38,319 nucleotides of DNA, from positions 4,718 to 43,036 of the forward strand of contig JAUNGJ010000022.1 of assembly GCA_030524585.1 (NCBI GenBank), read 5' to 3'. Within the stretch, counting starts at the first letter, position 1. Every line of letters starts with the position of its first letter. Under the pieces are notes generated by a model. It was not told where the DNA came from, did not search any database, and saw nothing but the letters and a program-made list of their open reading frames with translations. The position numbers and the translations under genes are program-made. Shown in pieces: positions 4,538 through 29,395 of this stretch. The stretch comes from Eubacteriales bacterium (GTDB taxonomy: Bacteria; Bacillota; Clostridia; Lachnospirales; Lachnospiraceae).

Positions 4538-6610
4538 TTATAATAAATTTTCCATGCTCTTCAGGCTGATTGCCAGCGTTGATGTGTTATGCAGCAATGC
4601 CGAAGTGGTAGGCTGGATCACTCCGCTTACCCCCAAAGCAATTAATCCGGCGTTGATTCCCACAATCATACGGTAATTCCCATGAATCCGCTTCATCAGA
4701 CCATTGCTGATATTCTTTAACGTGACGATCTGATATAGATTATCTGCCCCAACTGTGATATCCGCAATCTCGCGGGCAATCTCAGCGCCGTCACTGATGG
4801 CAATTCCCACGTCTGCCGCGGACAGTGCCGGAGAGTCATTGACTCCGTCACCGATCATGATGACTTTTCTTCCGGCTGCTTTTTCTTTCTCAACGAACCG
4901 CGCTTTGTCCTCCGGAAGAACCTCGGAATAGTATTCATCCACTCCCACCTTACCTGCAATGGCGCGGGCCGTCCGCTCGCTGTCTCCGGTCATCATAACC
5001 ACCTTACTGATTCCTGCCTTCTTTAACGCACGGACTACGTCCGCCGCCTCTTCCCGCAGAGGATCTTCAACACAGATAACTGCGGCAAGTGTACTTTCAA
5101 TTGCCATATACAGATGGGAATACCCTGCCGGAAGCGCATCAAAGCTTCCCTGCATTCCCTCCGGTACCTGGCACTTCTCATCCTCGAATACAAAATGATA
5201 GCTTCCGATAATCACTTTCTTATCTTCGATGGTAGAGGATATTCCATGTGCAACCATGTATTCTACCCGGGAATGCATCTCATCATGACCAAGTCCTTTT
5301 ATCCTCGCCGCATCTACCACCGCTTTTGCCATGGAATGCGGAAAATGTTCTTCCAGACATGCCGCAATGCGCAGCAGCTCATCCGGATCTTCTCCGTTAA
5401 AAGACACCACATCCACAACCGTAGGGCTTGCCTTGGTCAATGTGCCTGTCTTATCAAAGACAATGGTATCCGCTTCCGCAACGGCTTCCAGATACTTACC
5501 GCCTTTTACCGTCAGGCTGTGGACGCTTGCCTCCCGGATTGCGGACAGTACGGCAACCGGCATCGCCAGCTTTAAAGCGCAGGAAAAATCTACCATCAAA
5601 ACCGCCAGCGCCTTTGTCGTATTTCTGGTTACCAGCCAGGTAAGACCTGTTCCTGCAAAGGTATAAGGTACCAGACGGTCCGCCAGATGTTCTGCCTTGC
5701 TTTCCAGCGAGGATTTAAGCTTCTCCGACTCCTCGATCATAGTCACGATCTTATCATACCTGCCGGAGCCGCCCACTTCTTTGACACAGATGGTCAGCTC
5801 CCCTTCTTCTAATACGGTTCCTGCATAGACGTAACCGTCGCGGCGTTTGTGAACCGGAAGGGATTCTCCGGTGAGAGACGCCTGATTTACCATGGCGTCT
5901 CCATCTATGACAACTCCGTCAAACGGAATCACATTTCCCATATGTACGACTACCTCATCGCCAACCAGAATATCGGAGGCTTGAACCAGAATTTCCTGCC
6001 CGTCCTGCACTCTCCATACCTTGCTGACGTTCAGCGACATGCTTCTGGCAAGATCATCCACCGATTTCTTATGCGTCCATTCCTCAAGGATCTCACCGAT
6101 CCCCAACAGAAACATCACGGAGCTGGCAGTATCAAAGTCTCTCCGCAGCAGCGACACCCCAATGGCTGTGGCGTCCAGCACTGGAACCTCCAGCTTTCTG
6201 CCGGCCAGTGTCCGAATCCCCTGCCAGAGATACTTTACGGATTTCACCACCGCAATGGCTGCCTGTACGGAATAAGGGAGAAACAGCTTGCTTCCCGCCC
6301 TCAGTACAACGCTGTTGATAAGTTTTTCTTTATAATACTCATTCAATTCTCTTCCGGAATTCTGCAGATAGGACTCCGGCACATCAGCGCTGCCGTATCT
6401 GAAGCTGCGCAGCAGATGAATCAGGGTTTCCCGCTGGCCGGTATAGCTGATGGAAATATCCTGTGTCCGCTCACGTACCTTGACCGACGTGATATACGGC
6501 TGTATGCCCAGATAGTATTGGAGCTTATCAGCCTCTCTAAAAGACATTCCATCCTGCAGCACATGAACACGGATACGCCCTTTCATTTCATGTTTAATGA
6601 CAAATCTCAT
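4538..6610 (-). CDS. heavy-metal-type P-type ATPase with an SC-type membrane motif
   Basis: An ATP-driven metal pump of the P1B class, 690 residues. An HMA-like fold occupies about residues 1-70 but lacks the usual C-x-x-C. The actuator T-G-E-S is at 247-250, the phosphorylation motif D-K-T-G-T-L-T at 386-392, and G-D-G-V-N-D-S-P-A-L lies near 600. The nucleotide-domain H-P motif is altered to E-H-F-P-H-S-M-A-K-A. The metal-site motif in the key membrane helix reads D-F-S-C-A-L-K-L-A-M-P (341-351), so the canonical Cys-Pro-Cys is replaced by Ser-Cys-Ala. This marks a subfamily outside the classical Cu or Zn/Cd pumps. The gene immediately follows the DUF6110-like gene, sharing one base. The transported metal is unknown; efflux of Fe, Mn or Zn is plausible by analogy. 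Confidence 0.9.
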   Translation of the reverse strand: MRFVIKHEMKGRIRVHVLQDGMSFREADKLQYYLGIQPYITSVKVRERTQDISISYTGQRETLIHLLRSFRYGSADVPESYLQNSGRELNEYYKEKLINSVVLRAGSKLFLPYSVQAAIAVVKSVKYLWQGIRTLAGRKLEVPVLDATAIGVSLLRRDFDTASSVMFLLGIGEILEEWTHKKSVDDLARSMSLNVSKVWRVQDGQEILVQASDILVGDEVVVHMGNVIPFDGVVIDGDAMVNQASLTGESLPVHKRRDGYVYAGTVLEEGELTICVKEVGGSGRYDKIVTMIEESEKLKSSLESKAEHLADRLVPYTFAGTGLTWLVTRNTTKALAVLMVDFSCALKLAMPVAVLSAIREASVHSLTVKGGKYLEAVAEADTIVFDKTGTLTKASPTVVDVVSFNGEDPDELLRIAACLEEHFPHSMAKAVVDAARIKGLGHDEMHSRVEYMVAHGISSTIEDKKVIIGSYHFVFEDEKCQVPEGMQGSFDALPAGYSHLYMAIESTLAAVICVEDPLREEAADVVRALKKAGISKVVMMTGDSERTARAIAGKVGVDEYYSEVLPEDKARFVEKEKAAGRKVIMIGDGVNDSPALSAADVGIAISDGAEIAREIADITVGADNLYQIVTLKNISNGLMKRIHGNYRMIVGINAGLIALGVSGVIQPTTSALLHNTSTLAISLKSMENLL

Positions 6611-20600: not shown

Positions 20601-23132
20601 TTATTTCATTACTTCCGAATAGACTGCATGTCTCTCCAATGCTTCTGACAGTTCACCCATACGGCTGACGTCGCCGATCAGGATAACGCCGCACAGACGG
20701 TTATTCAGGAAATACAGCTTCTGATACTGTTTCTTGCCCATATCCTTGAATTCAACCGTCTTATATACCAGACTCGGGTTCTTGCCCGCATCTCCGGCTG
20801 CAAACAGCGCCGTCTTCATTCCGTGGAAATTCAAGGCCGCCGGAACGGTTGTGTATTCCAGCTCATCTCCCACCGCATTCGCTCCGGCTACTTTGCCCTG
20901 CTCTACGGCCTGAGGCCAGATGGCATAGTTAATTCCTTCATACTGGGCGCAGTCGCCGCAGGCATAGATATCCTCTGCACTGGTCTCCATCTTGCTATTT
21001 ACAACAACTGCTCTGTCGGTCTCGATACCGGCAGCCTTTGCCAAAGCTATATTGGCCCGTACGCCTGCTGATATAATAACCAGTTCTGCCGGAACCACGG
21101 TTCCGTCCGCCAGCTTGACGCCCGTAACATGTTCCTCTCCTTCAATCGATTCAATCTGCACTCCTGTCTGAATCCCAATCCCCTGACTCAAGCCGATCTT
21201 CTTAAGCACCTCTCCTGCCGCTTCGTCCAATTGACGTCCCATAAGAAGCGGGGCAAGCTCCAGAACGGTCACTTCACATCTGGCCTTTCTAAGCTCCCAG
21301 GCTGCCTCCAGACCAAGGACACCGCCGCCGATTACTGCCACATGCTTTACATCCGGCAAAAGCTCCATGATCTTCTGTGTGTCTGAAAGACGGCGGATCG
21401 CAATGACTTCCGGCTTGTCTGCTCCTGTGATTGGAGGAATAAAGCACTCGGAGCCTGCCGCGTAGATCAGCTTCGTATACTTTAACTTACTTCCGTCACT
21501 GATGGTAATTTCTTTATTTTCCGTATCAATGGCTGTCACTTCCCGGTCTAACAACTGAAGAATCTGGTTTTCTTCATACCAGGAAGCATCCTGCACTGCA
21601 ATCTGGTCGCCATTCAGGCCGGCCATAATGGATTTGGTCAGCATTGGACGGTTATAGGTACTGTAAGCTTCATTGGAAATCATGATCACAGATCCGGTCT
21701 TATCCCGCTCCCGGATCGCCTTTGCCGCATTAAGTCCTGCTGCTCCATTTCCAACGATAACGTAGAAATTCTTCGTATTATTGGTATACTGGTTTTCTTC
21801 CACTTCCACCGGAACAAAATTCTCTTTTCCAACGCCACAGACCGGACAGATCTCCAGAGACGAGTCGAAAATCTCTCCGCAGACGAGACATTTCACCAGC
21901 TGGCTCCTGCCGGAAGGTTTCTTCTTGGGATTTTCCTTCTTCTGAAGAATACAGCCAAAATTATATCCGTAATCATAAGCATCGATCAGGTTATTCTCAC
22001 CGGGTTTAAAACGTACCCGCAGGCCATCCACCACATTCATCCGAAGCTGTTTTAAGCGCTCAATAATATGAGTAACACCTTCTCCGCTCCATCCGTAGCT
22101 TCCGAAGGCGCTGGCAAGCTTCCCGCCGTGGGTCCCTGCAAAAATAGAGGTAGTAAGATCCCAGATTGGTTTTAGGGCCTCCCCCACAATCGTAGGCGTT
22201 CCAAACAAAATACCATCTGCAAATCCCAGCTCTTCCAGAACCTTTGCCTGATCCGCCGTTACCATATCATAGCAGCGTACGTCAACATCTCCGCTGTCTT
22301 TGATGCCTTCCGCAATCTTCTCGGCGAGCTGAGCCGTATAACCATATGCGCTTACATAAGGAATCACCACCGTCTTCCTCGGATTTGGATTTACCACGGT
22401 ACACCATTCCTCATAGGTATCCAGTATAAAATCGATTCTATCATCCAGAACCGGGCCGTGGCCGGGGCAGATCATCGACAGATTCAGTCCCCGTACCCGC
22501 GCAAGGGCCTTCAGCATAAATGGCTTAAAGGGACCGATAATACAGTCAAAATAATATTTCGTAGCCCGCATATATCCTTCATGGTCGGTCACTTTACTTA
22601 CCAGCACATCATGAAATCCATAATGAGAACCAAAGGAATCACAGGTAACAAGAATCTGCTCCTCCTCAATGTACGTATACATGGTATCCGGCCAGTGAAG
22701 GTTCGGAACCACCATGAACCTCAGCGTCTTATCCCCAATCTTCATCCGTTCATTGTCCTTTACGGAAATCGCGGTAAACTCTCCGTTTACGATCTCTTTC
22801 AGGAAACCGACGGCACATCCCGTGGCAATAATCTTGAGTCCCGGATTTAATTCCAGGAGCTTTTCCACACTTCCTGCATGATCCGGCTCCGTATGATTTA
22901 CCACAAGATAGTCAATCTTTGTTACATCGGTAATCTCTTTTAACTTCTCCAGATAATCTTCCCAGAACTTCTCCTTCGCCGTCTCAAATAGAATCGTCTT
23001 ATCTTCGGCTTTCATCACATAGGAATTGTAAGTAGTACCGAACTCCGTGTACATAATAATGTCAAAGACCCTCAGCGAATCATCCACAATGCCTGTCCAG
23101 TAAAAATCCTCTCTTAGCTTTAATGATTTCAT
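20601..23132 (-). CDS. flavodiiron protein / short-spaced rubredoxin / NADH:rubredoxin reductase fusion (FdpF-like)
   Basis: An 843-residue soluble enzyme that by family should reduce O2 (and perhaps NO) with NADH in one chain. Residues 1-250 are the diiron beta-lactamase-like domain with ligands H80-x-E82-x-D84, H146, D165 and H225. Residues about 253-395 are the flavodoxin domain. Residues about 411-445 are a rubredoxin whose pairs C415-x-x-C418 and C429-x-x-C432 are only ten residues apart instead of about 29: a short-spaced rubredoxin. Residues about 455-843 are an FAD/NADH rubredoxin reductase (V-G-N-G-A-A-G near 460-466). This matches the class described as FdpF in Clostridioides difficile. 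The start has GGAGG upstream; the gene diverges from azlC. Confidence 0.95.
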   Translation of the reverse strand: MKSLKLREDFYWTGIVDDSLRVFDIIMYTEFGTTYNSYVMKAEDKTILFETAKEKFWEDYLEKLKEITDVTKIDYLVVNHTEPDHAGSVEKLLELNPGLKIIATGCAVGFLKEIVNGEFTAISVKDNERMKIGDKTLRFMVVPNLHWPDTMYTYIEEEQILVTCDSFGSHYGFHDVLVSKVTDHEGYMRATKYYFDCIIGPFKPFMLKALARVRGLNLSMICPGHGPVLDDRIDFILDTYEEWCTVVNPNPRKTVVIPYVSAYGYTAQLAEKIAEGIKDSGDVDVRCYDMVTADQAKVLEELGFADGILFGTPTIVGEALKPIWDLTTSIFAGTHGGKLASAFGSYGWSGEGVTHIIERLKQLRMNVVDGLRVRFKPGENNLIDAYDYGYNFGCILQKKENPKKKPSGRSQLVKCLVCGEIFDSSLEICPVCGVGKENFVPVEVEENQYTNNTKNFYVIVGNGAAGLNAAKAIRERDKTGSVIMISNEAYSTYNRPMLTKSIMAGLNGDQIAVQDASWYEENQILQLLDREVTAIDTENKEITISDGSKLKYTKLIYAAGSECFIPPITGADKPEVIAIRRLSDTQKIMELLPDVKHVAVIGGGVLGLEAAWELRKARCEVTVLELAPLLMGRQLDEAAGEVLKKIGLSQGIGIQTGVQIESIEGEEHVTGVKLADGTVVPAELVIISAGVRANIALAKAAGIETDRAVVVNSKMETSAEDIYACGDCAQYEGINYAIWPQAVEQGKVAGANAVGDELEYTTVPAALNFHGMKTALFAAGDAGKNPSLVYKTVEFKDMGKKQYQKLYFLNNRLCGVILIGDVSRMGELSEALERHAVYSEVMK

Positions 23133-24023: not shown

Positions 24024-24349
24024 ATACGCTTTACAGCCTCCTGCTAATCGGAGTTATTTCACTGGTCACCATAGCCACCCGTTTCCTTCCCTTTCTGATA
24101 TTTCGGGATGACAGGAAAACGCCGAAGGCGCTGGAATACTTAGGCAGCGTCCTCCCCGGTGCGATCATGGGAATGCTGGTAGTCTACTGTTTCCGGTCAA
24201 CCACAGTGACCGCCTGGCCTTTCGGTCTGCCTGAGCTGCTGGCTGCAATCACTGTGGTGGTCTTGTATCTGTGGAAGCGGAACACTTTAGTTTCCATTGG
24301 AGTCGGCACCATATTATACATGATACTCGTCCAGATCCTGTTCTCATAA
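24020..24349 (+). CDS. azlD: AzlD family branched-chain amino acid exporter, small subunit
   Basis: The small membrane partner of AzlC, 109 residues with three to four hydrophobic segments. It shows the family pattern T-I-A-T-R-F-L-P-F-L-I-F near residues 18-29 and Y-L-G-S-V-L-P-G-A-I-M near 41-51. The start overlaps azlC. Its last six bases overlap the end of the convergent FAD oxidoreductase gene, leaving no room for a terminator between them. Confidence 0.94.
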   Translation: MNTLYSLLLIGVISLVTIATRFLPFLIFRDDRKTPKALEYLGSVLPGAIMGMLVVYCFRSTTVTAWPFGLPELLAAITVVVLYLWKRNTLVSIGVGTILYMILVQILFS

Positions 24350-26011
24350 AGAACGCCGTCCCGGCTTCTGCTCTGCCACATACCTTCCCGCCAGCATTCC
24401 CATGGTCTGTGCCATGGCAATGCTCTCTCCCGGCAGAGAGGATGTATACTGGAATCCAAACCTGCAGCCGCTGCTGTTTCCGGTGGCAAAAAGTCCCTCC
24501 ATCGGCTCATATTCATCATCCAGCACCTGCTGATTTTCATCGATCAGCAGCCCGCTCATTGTCACCAAAAGCTTAAAGGACTGACCGATGGGATGATGGC
24601 TGTCCTTTAGCTGTCCCATGGCGTAAAAGGGCGGCTGCTTAATCTCGTGCAAAAGCGCCTTTTCTTTTCCGAAATCCGGATCTTTTCCCTTTCTGCACAA
24701 TTCATTGTATCGTTCCACCGTTGCCAGAAATTGATTTCTGCAGGCCTGATCCTCAAACATATACTCTGCAAGCTGCTCTATGGTATCGGCGGCATAAAGC
24801 ACACGAACCGGTCTGGTATCCTCCGCTTCACTGCCCTTGACCGGAGTAATGGCGTAGCCCTCTCTTCCTGCTTCTCTGGCTCTCTGAAGCTGCCGGTCTA
24901 ACTTCGCCATCCGTTCCCCGTCACAGTAATCAATCACCGCATGACAGGGTGTCTGGTAAGTAAGCTCTTCCCTAATATTGTCGTCAAATATGCCATAAAG
25001 CATACCGTTTGGCTGCTTTGCCCCTGCAAGCGCTGCCAGAATATGGGTTCCAAACCCTTCATTGGAATAGCGTTTCCCGTACTTGTTGACACGAAGCACT
25101 GCCGCCGAGCCGGTAACATCGAATCCCGGAAGAGAATAGTTTCCCCCGGTTGCGCAGTGGGAGCGGGGTTCAAGCCTTCCGCCTGCCCATACGCCCATCT
25201 GAATACCGCTTCCGTCCCAGCCATGTCCCAGCCAATCCGAATCATTGTCCACCAGATCCGCCGCCTCTGTCAGCAGGTCAATGCACATCTGTCTGTTCCG
25301 GCTATAGTCTCCTGCCGCAATGATCACACCTTTGGATGCTTTGATGCGTATAAAGCTGCCATCCTTTTTCTCAGCCACCACTCCGCTGATCCTTGCGCCG
25401 TCCTTTAACAGTTCTCTGGCCCTGGTCTCAAAATAAAAGACCGCTCCCTGCTTTTCTGCCAGAAGCTGGTTCTTCTTAATTGCTATATTCTGGCCCTTGA
25501 CCCCCATCATTGCCGTTCCCGGATAAGCATGGATTCCGTTCAGCGTCTTTGGCATGTTGGGACTTGGCTTCTGGATGCGGGGATAAATCGCCGCCCGCTC
25601 CTCCTGAGACAAGGGTTCGATAAACCAATCAAAGCAGGCGCCGCAGTTTTCGGCAAACTTGCGGATCAGCCGGTAATTGGAACGGTTATTCGTCCGCAGC
25701 TGCCAATCATTGACAAATTCGTCCACATCCACTTCCGCCACTCCCTGGGACGCCTGCCACTTAGAATTGATATGTCCAATCTCACCCACCCCAAGAATAA
25801 ATTGATTCTCTCTTTCCTGCTGTTCGATAACCACAACCTTTACGCCTGCTTTCTCACTTGCGGCTCTCGCCGCACAGGTGCCCGCCTGTCCCGCTCCGAT
25901 GATCACCACATCCGCTTCAACGGTTTCCTTAATCTGGTCCTCCTTAACACTTTCCGGCTTCTTCATCCATCCAAAGGCCTCCGGCCTGTTTATTTTATCT
26001 GCCGCCTGCAT
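24344..26011 (-). CDS. FAD-dependent oxidoreductase, fumarate-reductase flavoprotein-like
   Basis: A 555-residue flavoprotein of the FAD-binding-2 (fumarate reductase/urocanate reductase) type. The FAD motif V-I-I-G-A-G-Q-A-G-T-C-A lies near residues 35-46. A C-terminal G-L-F-A-T-G-N-S-S-G-C-R-F-G segment near 510-523 closes the FAD site. No FMN-binding domain, haem motif or signal peptide is seen, so the enzyme is cytosolic and its electron donor is unknown. The frame extends to an ATG at 26092, but the ATG at 26011 follows GGGAGGG with proper spacing. It is the last gene of the FMN-riboswitch/SirTM run, 97 bases after the sirtuin gene. Its substrate cannot be named. Confidence 0.85.
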   Translation of the reverse strand: MQAADKINRPEAFGWMKKPESVKEDQIKETVEADVVIIGAGQAGTCAARAASEKAGVKVVVIEQQERENQFILGVGEIGHINSKWQASQGVAEVDVDEFVNDWQLRTNNRSNYRLIRKFAENCGACFDWFIEPLSQEERAAIYPRIQKPSPNMPKTLNGIHAYPGTAMMGVKGQNIAIKKNQLLAEKQGAVFYFETRARELLKDGARISGVVAEKKDGSFIRIKASKGVIIAAGDYSRNRQMCIDLLTEAADLVDNDSDWLGHGWDGSGIQMGVWAGGRLEPRSHCATGGNYSLPGFDVTGSAAVLRVNKYGKRYSNEGFGTHILAALAGAKQPNGMLYGIFDDNIREELTYQTPCHAVIDYCDGERMAKLDRQLQRAREAGREGYAITPVKGSEAEDTRPVRVLYAADTIEQLAEYMFEDQACRNQFLATVERYNELCRKGKDPDFGKEKALLHEIKQPPFYAMGQLKDSHHPIGQSFKLLVTMSGLLIDENQQVLDDEYEPMEGLFATGNSSGCRFGFQYTSSLPGESIAMAQTMGMLAGRYVAEQKPGRRSL

Positions 26012-26108
26012 ATGAATCCCTCCCAATTGCTGGATGCAATAATAAGATATATCCTCTCCTCCATAAGCTCTGCCATCCTCCGTTTCTCCCAAAGATACTG
26101 TCAGCCAG

Positions 26109-27023
26109 CTACGCTCCTGCCCTGACTTTCGCCGCTATATCCTTGATGCTGCCTTCCATATCCGCATTGATTCCAATGGCCCGCTTTCCAAGGCTTCTTG
26201 GCACGATTGCCTCATCTAAATTCAGACGGACCAGCGTCATATTCTTTTTCTTAGCCGCCAGATGCTCAAAGGGAAACCTTACGATAATCGGTGTATTAAA
26301 GCCAATTCCCAGCTCAAGCAGCACGGTCTTCTTCTCCTCGCACTCCGTCAGGAATCTGCCGAAGTTTTCCTCTGCCTGGTGCCATGCCTCATCTTCAACA
26401 AAATACTGGTCACATCTTAAGTTCATATTCATCCGTCCGCCGCATACAGGACATCTGGGAACCAGATACGACGGTATCAGGCAGTCCTCTCTTTCCTGAT
26501 GCATCTGAAGCATCAGCTCTTCATCGTCATACACTTTCTTATGACATCCCTTCCGGCACTGGATATAGCCATAGTCACCCTGAGTCGCAAAAATATGGTC
26601 TTCCCCAAAGCCAGCCTTGTAAAACTGATGATCCGCATTAGTGGTAAGCACAAAATAAGACTTCTCCTTTACCAGTTCATATAAGATCCTGTAGAGCTCC
26701 AGTGCCTCAGGCTCTATCCGGTTCACATACACATGCTTGGACCAGTAGCCCCATCTTGCCTCTTCGCTGGGGAAAGGATAGAAACCTGCACTGTACATAT
26801 CCGTCATGCCATACTTCTCAATAAACTCCGGAAAAAGCTCCTCAAACCGCTTCCCGCCGTAAGTAAGCCCTGCCGCCGCTGAAAGGCCTGCACCCGCTCC
26901 GATCAGAATATAGTCCGCTTCCCGGATCGCTTCTGCCGCCTGTGCAATCTGCTCCTGATATTCCGTTTCCTGAAAAATATAATCTCTTGCGGGTATTCCG
27001 CACAAAAACTTCTGAAATGTCAT
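26109..27023 (-). CDS. SirTM-type sirtuin, protein ADP-ribosyltransferase
   Basis: A NAD-dependent sirtuin-fold protein of 304 residues. The NAD motif G-A-G-A-G-L-S-A-A-A-G-L is near residues 40-51, the catalytic region T-T-N-A-D-H-Q-F near 127-134, and Q-G-D-Y-G-Y-I-Q-C near 147-155. A C-x-x-C (C-P-V-C) near 190 completes a zinc site. The T-T-N-x-D-H-Q-F and N-L-R-C-D-x-x-F-V-x-D stretches mark the macrodomain-linked SirTM class, which ADP-ribosylates proteins rather than deacylating them. The start at 27023 follows GGGAGG; an in-frame ATG at 27062 lacks support. The macrodomain gene lies 62 bases upstream, as in known SirTM operons. The lipoylated GcvH-L target and LplA2 ligase genes are not nearby. 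Confidence 0.9.
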   Translation of the reverse strand: MTFQKFLCGIPARDYIFQETEYQEQIAQAAEAIREADYILIGAGAGLSAAAGLTYGGKRFEELFPEFIEKYGMTDMYSAGFYPFPSEEARWGYWSKHVYVNRIEPEALELYRILYELVKEKSYFVLTTNADHQFYKAGFGEDHIFATQGDYGYIQCRKGCHKKVYDDEELMLQMHQEREDCLIPSYLVPRCPVCGGRMNMNLRCDQYFVEDEAWHQAEENFGRFLTECEEKKTVLLELGIGFNTPIIVRFPFEHLAAKKKNMTLVRLNLDEAIVPRSLGKRAIGINADMEGSIKDIAAKVRAGA

Positions 27024-27085
27024 ATACCTGTTCCTCCCAAATATCGTTTTCCGAAACGCCATATTTTTCCTTCTCTCTCCTCAAA

Positions 27086-27910
27086 TTAACGCAAAAGACT
27101 CTCGTAAATCTCTTTATCAAAATCTTTAAACACATTAAAGATCACCCGGTCAAAGGCATCTTCCTTCACGTCCAGATATTCCGATACAGTATCTGCCGCA
27201 ATCCTGGCCGCTTCATCGTTTGGGAAATGAAATACTCCCGTTGAGATACAGCAGAATGCCACGCTTCTGATACCATGCTTTACACAGCATTCCAGAATAT
27301 TTTCATAGCATTTTTTCAGATCATTTCGGTGTCTGTCCTTTAAACGCCCTTCCACGATCGGCCCCACCGTATGGATCACATTTTCTGCCGGAAGGTTGTA
27401 CCCTTCAGTAAGAAAGGCTTCTCCCGTAGGTTCCTCATAATCCCTTCCATATCTGATCCGCATATGGTTCATATACCTGTTGCATGCGGATCGAAGCTCT
27501 ACCCCCGCAAAGGTGTGGATACAGTTATCAATACATGTATGCATCGGCACAAAGCATCCCAGCATCTGGGAATTGGCCGCATTTACAATTGCTCCCACTT
27601 CCAGCCTGGTAATATCTCCCTGCCAGACAGAAAGCTTATCCCTATGCCGGTGTTTGCTGTTCTGAGTCTCTGCTATGGTCCGTATTTCCGCAAGAGTAAC
27701 GATCCCTTTTTCCCTTGCCCGCTCCTGAAGGTAATCATCCTGCACCCGAAGGATTTCTTCCTCCATCTCGCCGGGCATGCGGATATTCATAAGGGACCGC
27801 AGTACCGCGCGTTTTTCCTCCGGATCCCGGGAAACTTCCATATCTTTATATCTGACAGAATCCTCCTTAAATTTTTCTACAAGATAATCCAGTCTTTCTT
27901 CCTGATTCAT
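27086..27910 (-). CDS. zinc-type macrodomain ADP-ribosyl hydrolase
   Basis: A 274-residue protein with an N-terminal helical part (about 1-88) and a macrodomain (about 90-270). Macrodomain motifs are W-Q-G-D-I-T near 94-99, I-V-N-A-A-N-S near 107-113 and S-V-A-F-C-C-I-S-T-G-V-F near 220-231. The segment G-C-F-V-P-M-H-T-C-I-D-N (about 118-129) supplies a Cys-His-Cys set that fits the zinc ligands of zinc-dependent macrodomains linked to SirTM. Such enzymes remove the ADP-ribose added by SirTM. AGGAGC precedes the ATG. The gene comes directly after the ribU remnant and should depend on the same FMN riboswitch unless an internal promoter exists. Confidence 0.92.
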   Translation of the reverse strand: MNQEERLDYLVEKFKEDSVRYKDMEVSRDPEEKRAVLRSLMNIRMPGEMEEEILRVQDDYLQERAREKGIVTLAEIRTIAETQNSKHRHRDKLSVWQGDITRLEVGAIVNAANSQMLGCFVPMHTCIDNCIHTFAGVELRSACNRYMNHMRIRYGRDYEEPTGEAFLTEGYNLPAENVIHTVGPIVEGRLKDRHRNDLKKCYENILECCVKHGIRSVAFCCISTGVFHFPNDEAARIAADTVSEYLDVKEDAFDRVIFNVFKDFDKEIYESLLR

Positions 27911-27921
27911 ATAAAGCGCTC

Positions 27922-28093
27922 CTATCTGAATAATACTTTCTTTAATCTCTTATATACCAAAAATGTAATAACCGATACAACCCCGTATTTAAAAAGATTA
28001 AATGGCATCACCGCAAAAAGCATCATGGTAAACAGATCTGTGATCCTGGAATTTTCCGCTTTTCTTTGTCATTTCTCCATTTTGTGTGTACAT
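27922..28093 (-). pseudogene. remnant of riboflavin transporter ribU with internal deletion
   Basis: Between the FMN riboswitch and the macrodomain gene the expected ribU is reduced to a scrap. A GGAGG-preceded ATG at 28093 opens a frame of only 31 codons. In another frame the sequence encodes the recognisable C-terminal end of an ECF riboflavin S component, including M-P-F-N-L-F-K-Y-G-V-V-S-V-I-T-F-L-V-Y-K, stopping at 27922. Functional RibU is about 180-200 residues, so some 140 codons are missing and the ends are out of frame. A simple assembly error is possible, but the short, clean join looks like a real deletion. The organism would need another source of riboflavin. Confidence 0.75.
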
Positions 28094-28121
28094 TTCATTT
28101 CCTCCATTTTCAAATATTATG

Positions 28122-28154
28122 ATAAAAGCCCTAAGATGAATCCATCCAGGGCTT
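28122..28154 (-). terminator. terminator hairpin of the FMN riboswitch
   Basis: Arms AAGCCCT (28126-28132) and AGGGCTT (28148-28154), with an inner GATG/CATC pairing, form a hairpin. On the minus strand a short T-rich stretch follows. It lies just after the FMN aptamer and before the ribU remnant, as expected of a transcription-terminating expression platform. Confidence 0.65.
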
Positions 28155-28180
28155 AATATCACATATCTGAAAGTATCCAT

Positions 28181-28325
28181 CTTCTCTCATCCGGACTATT
28201 GTCAAGAGGCCGTATCACTTACCTCTTCACATGCTTAAGCAACCGTCGGTTCCGGAATCTCACCGGATCATGCTTTCGCTTGCGGACTATACCGCCGATT
28301 GGGAATTTCACCCTGCCTTGAAGAT
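28181..28325 (-). ncRNA. FMN riboswitch (RFN element)
   Basis: On the minus strand the conserved blocks appear in order: A-T-C-T-T-C-A-A-G-G-C-A-G-G-G-T-G-A-A-A-T-T-C-C-C, G-G-C-G-G-T-A, A-G-T-C-C-G-C, C-C-G-G-T-G-A-G-A-T-T-C-C-G-G, A-C-C-G-A-C-G-G-T and A-G-T-C-C-G-G-A-T-G-A-G-A-G-A-A-G. This is a complete FMN aptamer; by family knowledge FMN binding switches expression off. A variable arm with paired A-A-G-A-G-G and C-C-T-C-T-T is present. Downstream genes are the ribU remnant, the macrodomain hydrolase, SirTM and the FAD oxidoreductase. Confidence 0.97.
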
Positions 28326-28332
28326 AAATTGT

Positions 28333-28338
28333 ATTATA
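28333..28338 (-). promoter_or_regulatory. -10 box for the FMN-riboswitch transcript
   Basis: TATAAT on the minus strand lies just before the aptamer, in the short gap after the PPOX-family stop codon at 28353. The -35 position is weak (GAGTTT) and overlaps the end of that gene. Read-through from the PPOX gene is the alternative source of transcription. Confidence 0.4.
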
Positions 28339-28352
28339 TTCTGCCGCTATGC

Positions 28353-28748
28353 TTAAAACTCATAGGGCGGATTTCCTGAGAAATCTGCAATTACACCATG
28401 AGCATCCTCAAGATAGAACACCTCGAATGCCGGATTATCTGCCGTCTCATAGTTGCCCTTTACGATTGGATTCTCAAGCGCTGCTTCCTTGATTGCTTTA
28501 TCATCTACAAACACAGCTTTTCCGCTGAGACGAATCCACTGAAATTCCGGCGAAGATACGCTGATCTGAACATACGGATTAGCCTGCAGCTCCTTGTAAA
28601 CGTCTTTGAAATTACCTGTATTGAACCAAAGCTTGCCATCCTTCTCAAAACTGAACATGAACGGGCGGCACTTTGCCTTGCCATCCAGACTTACGGTTGC
28701 AAGATACTGTACCGGGTTTGCTGTTAAAAACTCTGATACTTTACTCAT
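28353..28748 (-). CDS. pyridoxamine 5'-phosphate oxidase family (FMN split-barrel) protein
   Basis: A small flavin-binding split-barrel protein of 131 residues. It has the family features L-A-T-V-S-L-D-G-K-A-K-C-R-P near residues 17-30, G-K-L-W-F-N-T-G near 39-46, and W-I-R-L-S-G-K-A-V-F near 71-80. Members bind FMN or F420 and act in redox or flavin chemistry; the reaction here is unknown. Two ATGs are possible. The one at 28748 is spaced correctly from AGGAGG, while that at 28754 lies only two bases from it, so I use 28748. Its promoter is covered by operators shared with the divergent Rrf2 gene. Confidence 0.88.
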   Translation of the reverse strand: MSKVSEFLTANPVQYLATVSLDGKAKCRPFMFSFEKDGKLWFNTGNFKDVYKELQANPYVQISVSSPEFQWIRLSGKAVFVDDKAIKEAALENPIVKGNYETADNPAFEVFYLEDAHGVIADFSGNPPYEF

Positions 28749-28814
28749 TTTCATTTACCTCCTGGGCTTTTAAGATCGATTTACCCACAGAAGAATCCTC
28801 TATTCTCATCTGTG

Positions 28815-28933
28815 TTGTAATCTTGTTCGTTACAATTAGGTTTATATCACATTCTTGTTGTAATGTCAATGATTACAACAAAAATTTAAAATTTGTTGTA
28901 ATTCTTGTTTTTACAGCTTACAGATGATAAAAT
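28815..28933. promoter_or_regulatory. divergent promoters with three matched operators for the Rrf2 regulator
   Basis: Three sites share the design TTGTAA-N9-TTACA(A/G): 28815-28835, 28858-28878 (extended to ten-base arms, 28855-28881) and 28896-28916. On the minus strand TTGACA (28864-28869) and TATAAA (28841-28846), 17 apart, drive the PPOX-family gene. The second site covers that -35 and the first lies just past its -10. On the plus strand TTGTTT (28905-28910) and TAAAAT (28928-28933), 17 apart, drive the Rrf2 gene, with the third site over its -35. The placement fits repression of both genes by the Rrf2 protein. Confidence 0.75.
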
Positions 28934-28960
28934 ATTTCAATAAAATGGAGGATTTCAGAT

Positions 28961-29395
28961 ATGCAGTATTCATCACGTTTTACGATTGCAATTCATATAT
29001 TACTTTGCATTGACCAGTTTTCAGAAGAACAGAAGGTTACTTCCACTTTCCTTGCGGGAAGCATTGGAGTAAATCCGGTTATTGTTCGAAATGTACTTCT
29101 CAGGCTGCAGGATGCAAAGCTTATAATAACCGCCGCGGGCGTCGGCGGCTCAAAGCTCGCCAAAGATCCTGCTGATATTACGATGCTTGATATTTTTAAG
29201 GCAGTAGAGGATTCCAACGAGATCCTCTTTCATTTTCATGAAAATCCAAACCCGGAATGTCAGGTGGGCAGAACGATCCATGCCGTATTAGACGATAAGC
29301 TGATGCTAATCCAGAAGGCGATGGAAAGCAGTATGAACTCAGTTACCCTGCAATCCATCATTGAAGATATGAAAAAGAAGCAGCGGGAATACTAG
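28961..29395 (+). CDS. Rrf2 family transcriptional regulator
   Basis: A winged-helix DNA-binding protein of 144 residues. It begins with S-S-R-F-T-I-A-I-H-I-L and a helix-turn-helix (about 25-50) of Rrf2 type, containing F-L-A-G-S-I-G-V-N-P-V-I-V-R. The wing segment A-G-V-G-G-S-K-L-A-K (about 63-72) is characteristic. The iron-sulfur cysteine trio of IscR/NsrR is absent; only one Cys (in N-P-E-C-Q) is seen, so this is likely the YwnA/CymR-like non-cluster group, sensing thiols or another ligand. GGAGG precedes the ATG. The intergenic operators argue for autoregulation and control of the PPOX-family gene. Confidence 0.93.
   Translation: MQYSSRFTIAIHILLCIDQFSEEQKVTSTFLAGSIGVNPVIVRNVLLRLQDAKLIITAAGVGGSKLAKDPADITMLDIFKAVEDSNEILFHFHENPNPECQVGRTIHAVLDDKLMLIQKAMESSMNSVTLQSIIEDMKKKQREY

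Follow-up and report, generated by a model that had tools for sequence, protein, structure and literature searches.

In the window, that is, the whole stretch of 38,319 nucleotides that was analyzed, an FMN riboswitch stands on the minus strand ahead of a broken gene of the riboflavin importer RibU. The next intact genes encode a Zn-type macrodomain ADP-ribosyl hydrolase, a class M sirtuin (SirTM) and an FAD oxidoreductase, as had been read in the earlier note. The parts of the locus, their order, the dead ribU and homologous arrangements in relatives are all present. On balance, it seems somewhat probable that transcription of the macrodomain–SirTM pair passes this attenuator here, within a flavin-themed cassette. 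The simplest account would be an inherited or recaptured FMN attenuator in a redox- and flavin-themed SirTM/Zn-macrodomain cassette whose importer gene has died.

FMN riboswitch, leader hairpin and the ribU remnant

The FMN riboswitch aptamer (minus strand, 28329–28175) is the only Rfam match above the gathering score in the window (RF00050, 90.5 bits, gathering score 66.2, E = 1.3e-19). The match extends over the full length of the model (positions 1–138), confirming the full aptamer claimed previously; it is largely intact, and its location was correct except for the start, which lies at 28329 and not at 28325. The model R1, built from 14 aptamers of the genus and used in place of a strict motif script that missed most aptamers, scored the same RNA at 98.3 bits. 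Among the 70 above-cut-off FMN matches in 60 genomes of the family (the three of its own genome included), the window aptamer ranked 64th; its score is low yet within the normal range.

Comparison of the cores of 72 aptamers showed that the window aptamer differs at 3 of the 47 columns that show ≥95% conservation across the 69 reference aptamers. One difference is a real core substitution (G to A at 28281), shared with the aptamer L123, which lies upstream of a frame with, by eye, a RibU-like C-terminus. The other two stem from an insert of ~42 nt in loop L6, a loop that exceeds 9 nt in no other of the 71 compared aptamers except the decayed L225 (12 nt). FMN aptamers fold with loop–loop docking, which the L6 insert may harm.

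Sequence reading and folding revealed an attenuator-like hairpin, AAGCCCU...AGGGCUU, downstream of the aptamer (minus strand, 28154–28126, the feature reaching 28119). The hairpin previously called a terminator is therefore present, but it is followed directly by UUAUCAU, so that the U-run is short (four), and a simple terminator scan of the leader found no terminator and did not flag the hairpin. The leader fold has z = −4.9, and none of 200 shuffles was equally stable. Within the hairpin, AUUCAUCUU (28141–28133) could base-pair with the 3′ strand of the aptamer stem P1 (28183–28175) in a candidate antiterminator helix of 9 bp, which was equalled in 130 of 20,000 shuffled hairpins. The two states are near-equal in the truncated transcript (−53.7 vs. 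−54.3 kcal/mol, a difference of 0.6), whereas in the full leader the terminator fold (−79.5 kcal/mol) is favored over the antiterminator fold (−61.6 kcal/mol) by 17.9. A common descent of the window hairpin and that of the locus L155 was considered and dropped: similar hairpins were seen by eye in L118, L119, L121, L122 and L124, and because the design is common, their likeness does not prove descent.

The ribU remnant occupies 27922–28093 of the minus strand and consists of N-terminal codons read from 28093, followed by a C-terminal frame at 28047–27922. The ATG at 28093 is preceded by a ribosome site and opens a frame of 31 codons, the first ~15 of which are RibU-like by eye. The C-terminal piece, out of frame with the N-terminal one, encodes 41 aa, which is all that is left of the C-terminus; a full-length RibU, the riboflavin ECF S component, is absent from the window. 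The match of these 41 aa with PF12822 is weak (E = 0.0069, under the cut-off), and their alignment with intact RibU C-termini shows clear similarity. By estimate, ~140–150 of about 200 codons are absent (the intact RibU of L161 has 204 residues). The gene is dead, cut by an internal deletion, and its description as a scrap joined out of frame holds. Its stop codon is separated from the macrodomain ATG by 11 nt, a gap in which the promoter scan picked out no promoter-like sequence on the minus strand.

This junction is known from one draft assembly (115 contigs, 91.8% complete). When a close copy of it was sought by DNA in 397 genomes of the family, the aptamer core alone matched elsewhere, among the matches listed. 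Both facts would fit a misjoin in the draft, either at the ribU junction or in the gene order; however, we consider such an artefact very improbable. The Rrf2/PNPOx and macrodomain–SirTM genes are neighbors in the loci L020/L156 too, and hence the two flanks of the junction belong with each other; moreover, the ribU remnant ends only those 11 nt ahead of the macrodomain start.

The window genome contains three FMN riboswitches. The other two (L001 and L002) each precede an intact ribU, so that the search for a second ribU suggested in the earlier note yielded two further copies; the ribU of L002 is followed by a PNPOx-family gene. Lumazine synthase was present in 14 of 14 control genomes and was not found in the 91.8% complete draft. 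Because this enzyme was not found and two intact ribU genes were, the host is likely auxotrophic for riboflavin and has two functional importers. Given the two other riboswitch–ribU loci, the window ribU is redundant, and its loss should be tolerable.

Genes of the cassette and their possible transcription

The gene order on the two strands begins with an Rrf2-family regulator (plus strand, 28961–29395; PF02082, 1e-30), divergent from a gene for a PNPOx-family protein of 133 aa (minus strand, 28353–28754; PF01243, 1e-13). The nearest NCBIfam equivalog of the Rrf2 protein is the redox-sensing regulator HypR (NF041852), but the score of 54.5 bits against a cut-off of 180 does not place the protein in it. 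The closest solved chain for the PNPOx protein is 2ig6, a NimC/NimA family protein, and it shows 94% to its counterpart in L018. The region shared by the two genes carries three copies of the operator-like palindrome TTGTAAT-N7-ATTACAA (28815–28916), starting at 28815, 28858 and 28896 with 1, 0 and 2 mismatches, respectively. Over 81 other loci, with each stretch counted once and the locus of the window left out, the 29,918 bases lying upstream of Rrf2/PNPOx contained 19 copies of the palindrome vs. 8 in the remaining 900,559 bases; at the stringency used, it was found upstream in only 17 of the 81 loci.

Downstream of the ribU remnant, the macrodomain gene (minus strand, 27086–27910) encodes 274 aa with significant matches to PF01661 (1.6e-35), NF003163 (310.9 bits, cut-off 272) and the solved Zn-macrodomain 8rsi (9.5e-66). 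The protein has CFVPMHTC (C-x4-H-x-C) at 119, NAAN at 110 and DNCIH (D..IH, the Asp/His dyad) at 128, i.e., the Zn-macrodomain motifs given in a passage of PMC11490716. An N-terminal extension precedes the Pfam Macro match, which begins at residue 109 of 274. A second macrodomain gene of the same genome (L013, G000:C74:15343–15828), with 46% identity in part of its sequence, is not on the contig with the only SirTM match of the genome.

The adjoining SirTM, a putative ADP-ribosyltransferase of 317 aa (minus strand, 26109–27062), matches PDB 5a3a (1.1e-56), while Pfam SIR2 gives just 18.3 bits, under the cut-off. According to a passage of PMC4518038, class M sirtuins have QG in place of HG and a GVGx[NT]TP motif; the window protein has QG at 161, no HG, and GIGFNTP at 252, a V-to-I departure from the strict motif. 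The gene of the FAD_binding_2 oxidoreductase follows (minus strand, 24344–26011; PF00890, 1.4e-31); its open reading frame was listed from a TTG at 26092, and inspection by eye gave an ATG at 26011 that has a good ribosome site. This gene was tried as a member of the cassette and rejected, as the tblastn matches shown were confined to the window's own locus, with none in any relative's locus examined. A further redox flavoprotein, of 843 aa, is encoded nearby (20601–23132) and combines an ODP-type beta-lactamase fold with flavodoxin, rubredoxin-like and pyridine nucleotide-disulphide oxidoreductase domains.

The PNPOx stop codon and the aptamer are 23 nt apart, with no obvious terminator between them. 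The same gap holds a candidate promoter element, TATAAT (minus strand, 28333–28338), noticed by eye just before stem P1 and unflagged by the 9-of-12 promoter scan, as a good −35 hexamer is missing. The earlier note would have yielded to an independent promoter supplying all transcription of the macrodomain gene; the scan of 27850–28960 flagged no minus-strand promoter-like site, though it missed TATAAT as well.

From this arrangement we infer co-transcription, antitermination, a response to FMN and binding of the Rrf2 protein. The divergent Rrf2 regulator would control transcription of PNPOx via the palindromes in the shared intergenic region. Transcripts from the PNPOx promoter or from TATAAT would all have to pass the FMN switch, since the 23-nt gap has no obvious terminator and TATAAT also lies there. 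When FMN is plentiful, P1 would close, the hairpin would form and RNA polymerase would stop. Under FMN shortage, the 3′ strand of P1 would pair with the hairpin as an antiterminator, and the macrodomain and SirTM genes, possibly with that of the FAD oxidoreductase, would be read. The ribU gene would be the former first gene behind the switch, shortened later by the internal deletion.

The riboswitch slot of the cassette in related loci

The locus L161 (genome G035) carries, on one strand, genes for Rrf2, PNPOx (74% to that of the window), the FMN riboswitch, RibU, a PNPOx-ferredoxin fusion, SirTM and the macrodomain. Its riboswitch (109 bits) begins 20 nt past the PNPOx stop codon and is backed by a strong terminator; RibU is intact (PF12822, 8.5e-34). 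Thus, an intact ribU between the riboswitch and the pair, proposed earlier as a check, was found in one relative. It was also proposed that the ribU deletion may have re-wired control of the pair. This was not upheld: because L161 holds the riboswitch, ribU and the pair on one strand, the deletion did not newly create their linkage.

PNPOx, aptamer and RibU are also present in L234 and L224, with no macrodomain or SirTM match within the stretch; the C-terminus of RibU in L224 and PNPOx-ferredoxin in L234 are cut off. In L235 (the region of L312), the order is PNPOx, aptamer (85 bits), broken ribU, PNPOx-ferredoxin, macrodomain and SirTM. This second case of a wrecked ribU downstream of an FMN aptamer (L235, 8415–8770) arose from a deletion reaching from inside the terminator into mid-gene; since the terminator was removed too, FMN control has probably been lost in L235.

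Decayed aptamers without ribU were found in L225 (the region of L304) and L178, and L155 is probably alike. L304 reached 29.0 bits with R1 and L225 29.6 bits with the Rfam FMN model, below the cut-off; R1 gave 33.4 bits (E = 7.8e-9) for L178 and a weak 15.0 bits (E = 0.035) for L155. The Rfam FMN model, used permissively (E up to 0.5), reported neither L155 nor L178, and their reading as decayed aptamers is based on R1, position and inspection by eye. At the 47 near-invariant columns, L225 and L178 depart in 13 and 17, respectively. The whole head of the cassette is decaying in L178 (1800–2720): PNPOx is missing its N-terminal portion, the aptamer has eroded and PNPOx-ferredoxin is interrupted by a stop codon (by eye), with macrodomain and SirTM matches still present. 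In L155, a long near-perfect inverted repeat lies between Rrf2 and PNPOx (6053–6242); it matches a plant microRNA family under the cut-off, surely by chance, and possibly represents a small mobile element.

L018 and the window are sisters in the SirTM tree (support 97/95), and L020/L156 are also close. The R1 search and reading showed no aptamer in L018 or L020/L156, where the PNPOx stop codon and the macrodomain match are 147 nt and 191 nt apart, respectively. Because the unit is intact in L161, wrecked or decayed in L235, L225 and L178, and gone from L018 and L020/L156, the slot from PNPOx to the pair is one in which an FMN riboswitch–ribU unit once stood and was lost repeatedly.

These stages of decay in the same slot (29 bits in L225, 33 in L178, a weak 15 in L155, nothing in L018 and L156) lend some weight to the view that the window riboswitch is itself a relic. 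It would have been drifting since the death of ribU, the pair being transcribed by run-through or by way of a promoter that escaped detection, and FMN would exert no useful control. L235, which keeps the aptamer with the terminator and the ribU start gone, is consistent with such a course, as are the L6 insert, absent from other intact aptamers, and the short U-run of the window. However, the window aptamer still scores 90.5 bits vs. 29–33 for the clearly decayed ones, and its hairpin and candidate antiterminator are still complementary; we regard the relic as a serious, though less probable, explanation.

In the window lineage, a riboswitch–ribU unit of another lineage may have been inserted independently into the slot, taken control and later lost ribU, a history to which we give an even chance; it differs from the attenuator reading in history only, and both are compatible. 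The RibU scrap scores 118–120 with the non-cassette L282, L111 and L112 vs. 70 with L161 and 82 with L234, and the core of the window aptamer is 83% identical to that of the non-cassette L245 and 76% to that of L161, while four cassette aptamers share 78–96%. The sister locus L018, having no aptamer, fits an independent capture as well. On the other hand, 41 aa and 115 columns are too short to settle ancestry, the L161 aptamer is 84% identical to that of the non-cassette L252, as close as to L224 and L235, and the position in the slot is the same in the window and in L161.

The genome with the intact cassette L161 contains, at another locus (L284, G035:C55:62379–63541), an FMN-riboswitch-like RNA with 74 bits by Rfam and nine near-invariant departures. 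It is possibly a ligand-altered FMN riboswitch variant, of a kind reportedly studied by the Breaker laboratory.

Flavin genes and FMN riboswitches around SirTM and macrodomain genes

Extended SirTM/Zn-macrodomain operons are described in passages of PMC4518038 and PMC11490716 for Staphylococcaceae and Lactobacillales. As there, the class M sirtuin of the window adjoins the zinc macrodomain, and flavin oxidoreductases (OYE and LLM in the extended operons) are part of the surroundings. Because extended operons carry OYE and LLM (PMC4518038, in the passage cited), the flavin theme extends a known one. Unlike these operons of the GcvH-L/LplA2 type, the window showed neither GcvH-L nor a lipoate ligase in the Pfam scan of nine of its proteins, and it has PNPOx, the Rrf2 regulator, the dead ribU and the FMN riboswitch; relatives have PNPOx-ferredoxin, RibU, FMN reductase or nitroreductase. 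Lone pairs without GcvH-L/LplA2 are reported for Enterococcus faecalis and Treponema pedis, with substrates called elusive in the part of PMC11490716 that treats them. The window pair resembles the latter in having no GcvH-L/LplA2, but it differs in recurrent flavin-gene neighbors and, rarely, the FMN riboswitch. Compared with FMN riboswitch–ribU units (RF00050), the aptamer, the attenuator-like hairpin and ribU as the first gene are shared, whereas in the window ribU is dead and the first intact genes are those of ADP-ribosylation enzymes. Words that start with FMN, flavin, riboflavin, Rrf2 or pyridoxamine do not occur in the main text of PMC11490716. A literature search, mostly without subscription-journal papers, gave none with both "FMN riboswitch" and "macrodomain"; for "Rrf2" with "macrodomain" and "FMN riboswitch" with "sirtuin", no paper concerned such a link by its title or the start of its abstract.

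R1 was applied to 93 macrodomain loci, comprising 80 from named genomes (66 of these with >1,500 bases upstream) and 13 from the genus, and to 80 SirTM loci taken from the best 81 non-own SirTM matches. The macrodomain loci gave nothing but a marginal 16.9 bits in L065, ~4 kb off the macrodomain gene. In the SirTM loci, five strong aptamers (L161, L312, L176, L179 and L180) and three weak slot aptamers (L178, L304 and L155) were detected. Only L161 and L312 are operonic, on the same strand just upstream; the others lie on the opposite strand, ~3 kb (L176) or ~7 kb (L179/L180, one genus) off. Five strong riboswitches within ±8 kb of 80 SirTM loci compare with 0.44 expected (P about 1e-4, or about 1e-3 when counted as four genera), the expectation for 1.149 Mb being taken from 70 matches in 60 genomes (about 182 Mb; Rfam model, strict filters). 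FMN riboswitches are enriched in the SirTM neighborhood. At 75 of the 80 SirTM loci there is no operonic FMN aptamer, whole or decayed, and the pair usually works without the FMN switch.

Flavin-related genes recur as neighbors. Within about 4.5 kb, 80 macrodomain loci showed a same-strand Rrf2-like gene in 45, and PNPOx-ferredoxin-like, nitroreductase-like, FMN reductase-like and intact RibU genes in 30, 10, 8 and 4, respectively (domains checked on one representative per type); at least one of these four flavin types was present in 43. With five types and a distance of 4 kb, 41 of 80 SirTM loci had at least one same-strand flavin-type neighbor. At E ≤ 1e-45, 27 of the 397 genomes of the family encode the 133-aa PNPOx protein; in the window and in 19 of the 26 non-own genomes, it shares a strand with SirTM and lies no more than 4 kb away. 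This suggests that flavin genes and the ADP-ribosylation system travel together in relatives. The switch would be a dispensable part of a flavin-themed SirTM/Zn-macrodomain cassette, likely with an Rrf2 regulator.

The targets and signals of SirTM/Zn-macrodomain pairs outside the GcvH-L operon are called elusive in the cited part of PMC11490716. The recurrent neighbors name candidate partners of the pair (the NimA-like PNPOx protein, the PNPOx-ferredoxin fusion and RibU) and candidate signals (FMN and the stimulus to which the Rrf2 protein responds). Flavin status as a true signal, the second idea of the earlier note, agrees with the many flavin genes of the cassette, but not with the lack of an aptamer in the sister L018 and in the operons of the 75 SirTM loci above. 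We suggest it tentatively, as less than an even bet: flavin supply would be a genuine input to a class of SirTM/Zn-macrodomain systems, riboswitches and riboflavin importers having been placed in the slot more than once. Together with a redox-type Rrf2 protein, ADP-ribosylation would then answer FMN shortage and redox stress at once, perhaps because the modified targets are the flavoproteins of the cassette (PNPOx and PNPOx-ferredoxin).

In the four macrodomain loci with intact RibU (L024, L031, L072 and L083), all from ruminant-gut MAGs by title, RibU lies upstream of PNPOx-ferredoxin, macrodomain and SirTM. None of the four showed an FMN riboswitch, the contig of L031 beginning 72 bases before the RibU frame. 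In L083, an azaaromatic (yjdF) riboswitch (minus strand, 1507–1639; 58.9 bits) was observed on the strand opposite to the run of Rrf2, FMN reductase, RibU, PNPOx-ferredoxin, macrodomain and SirTM, ~0.3 kb from its start.
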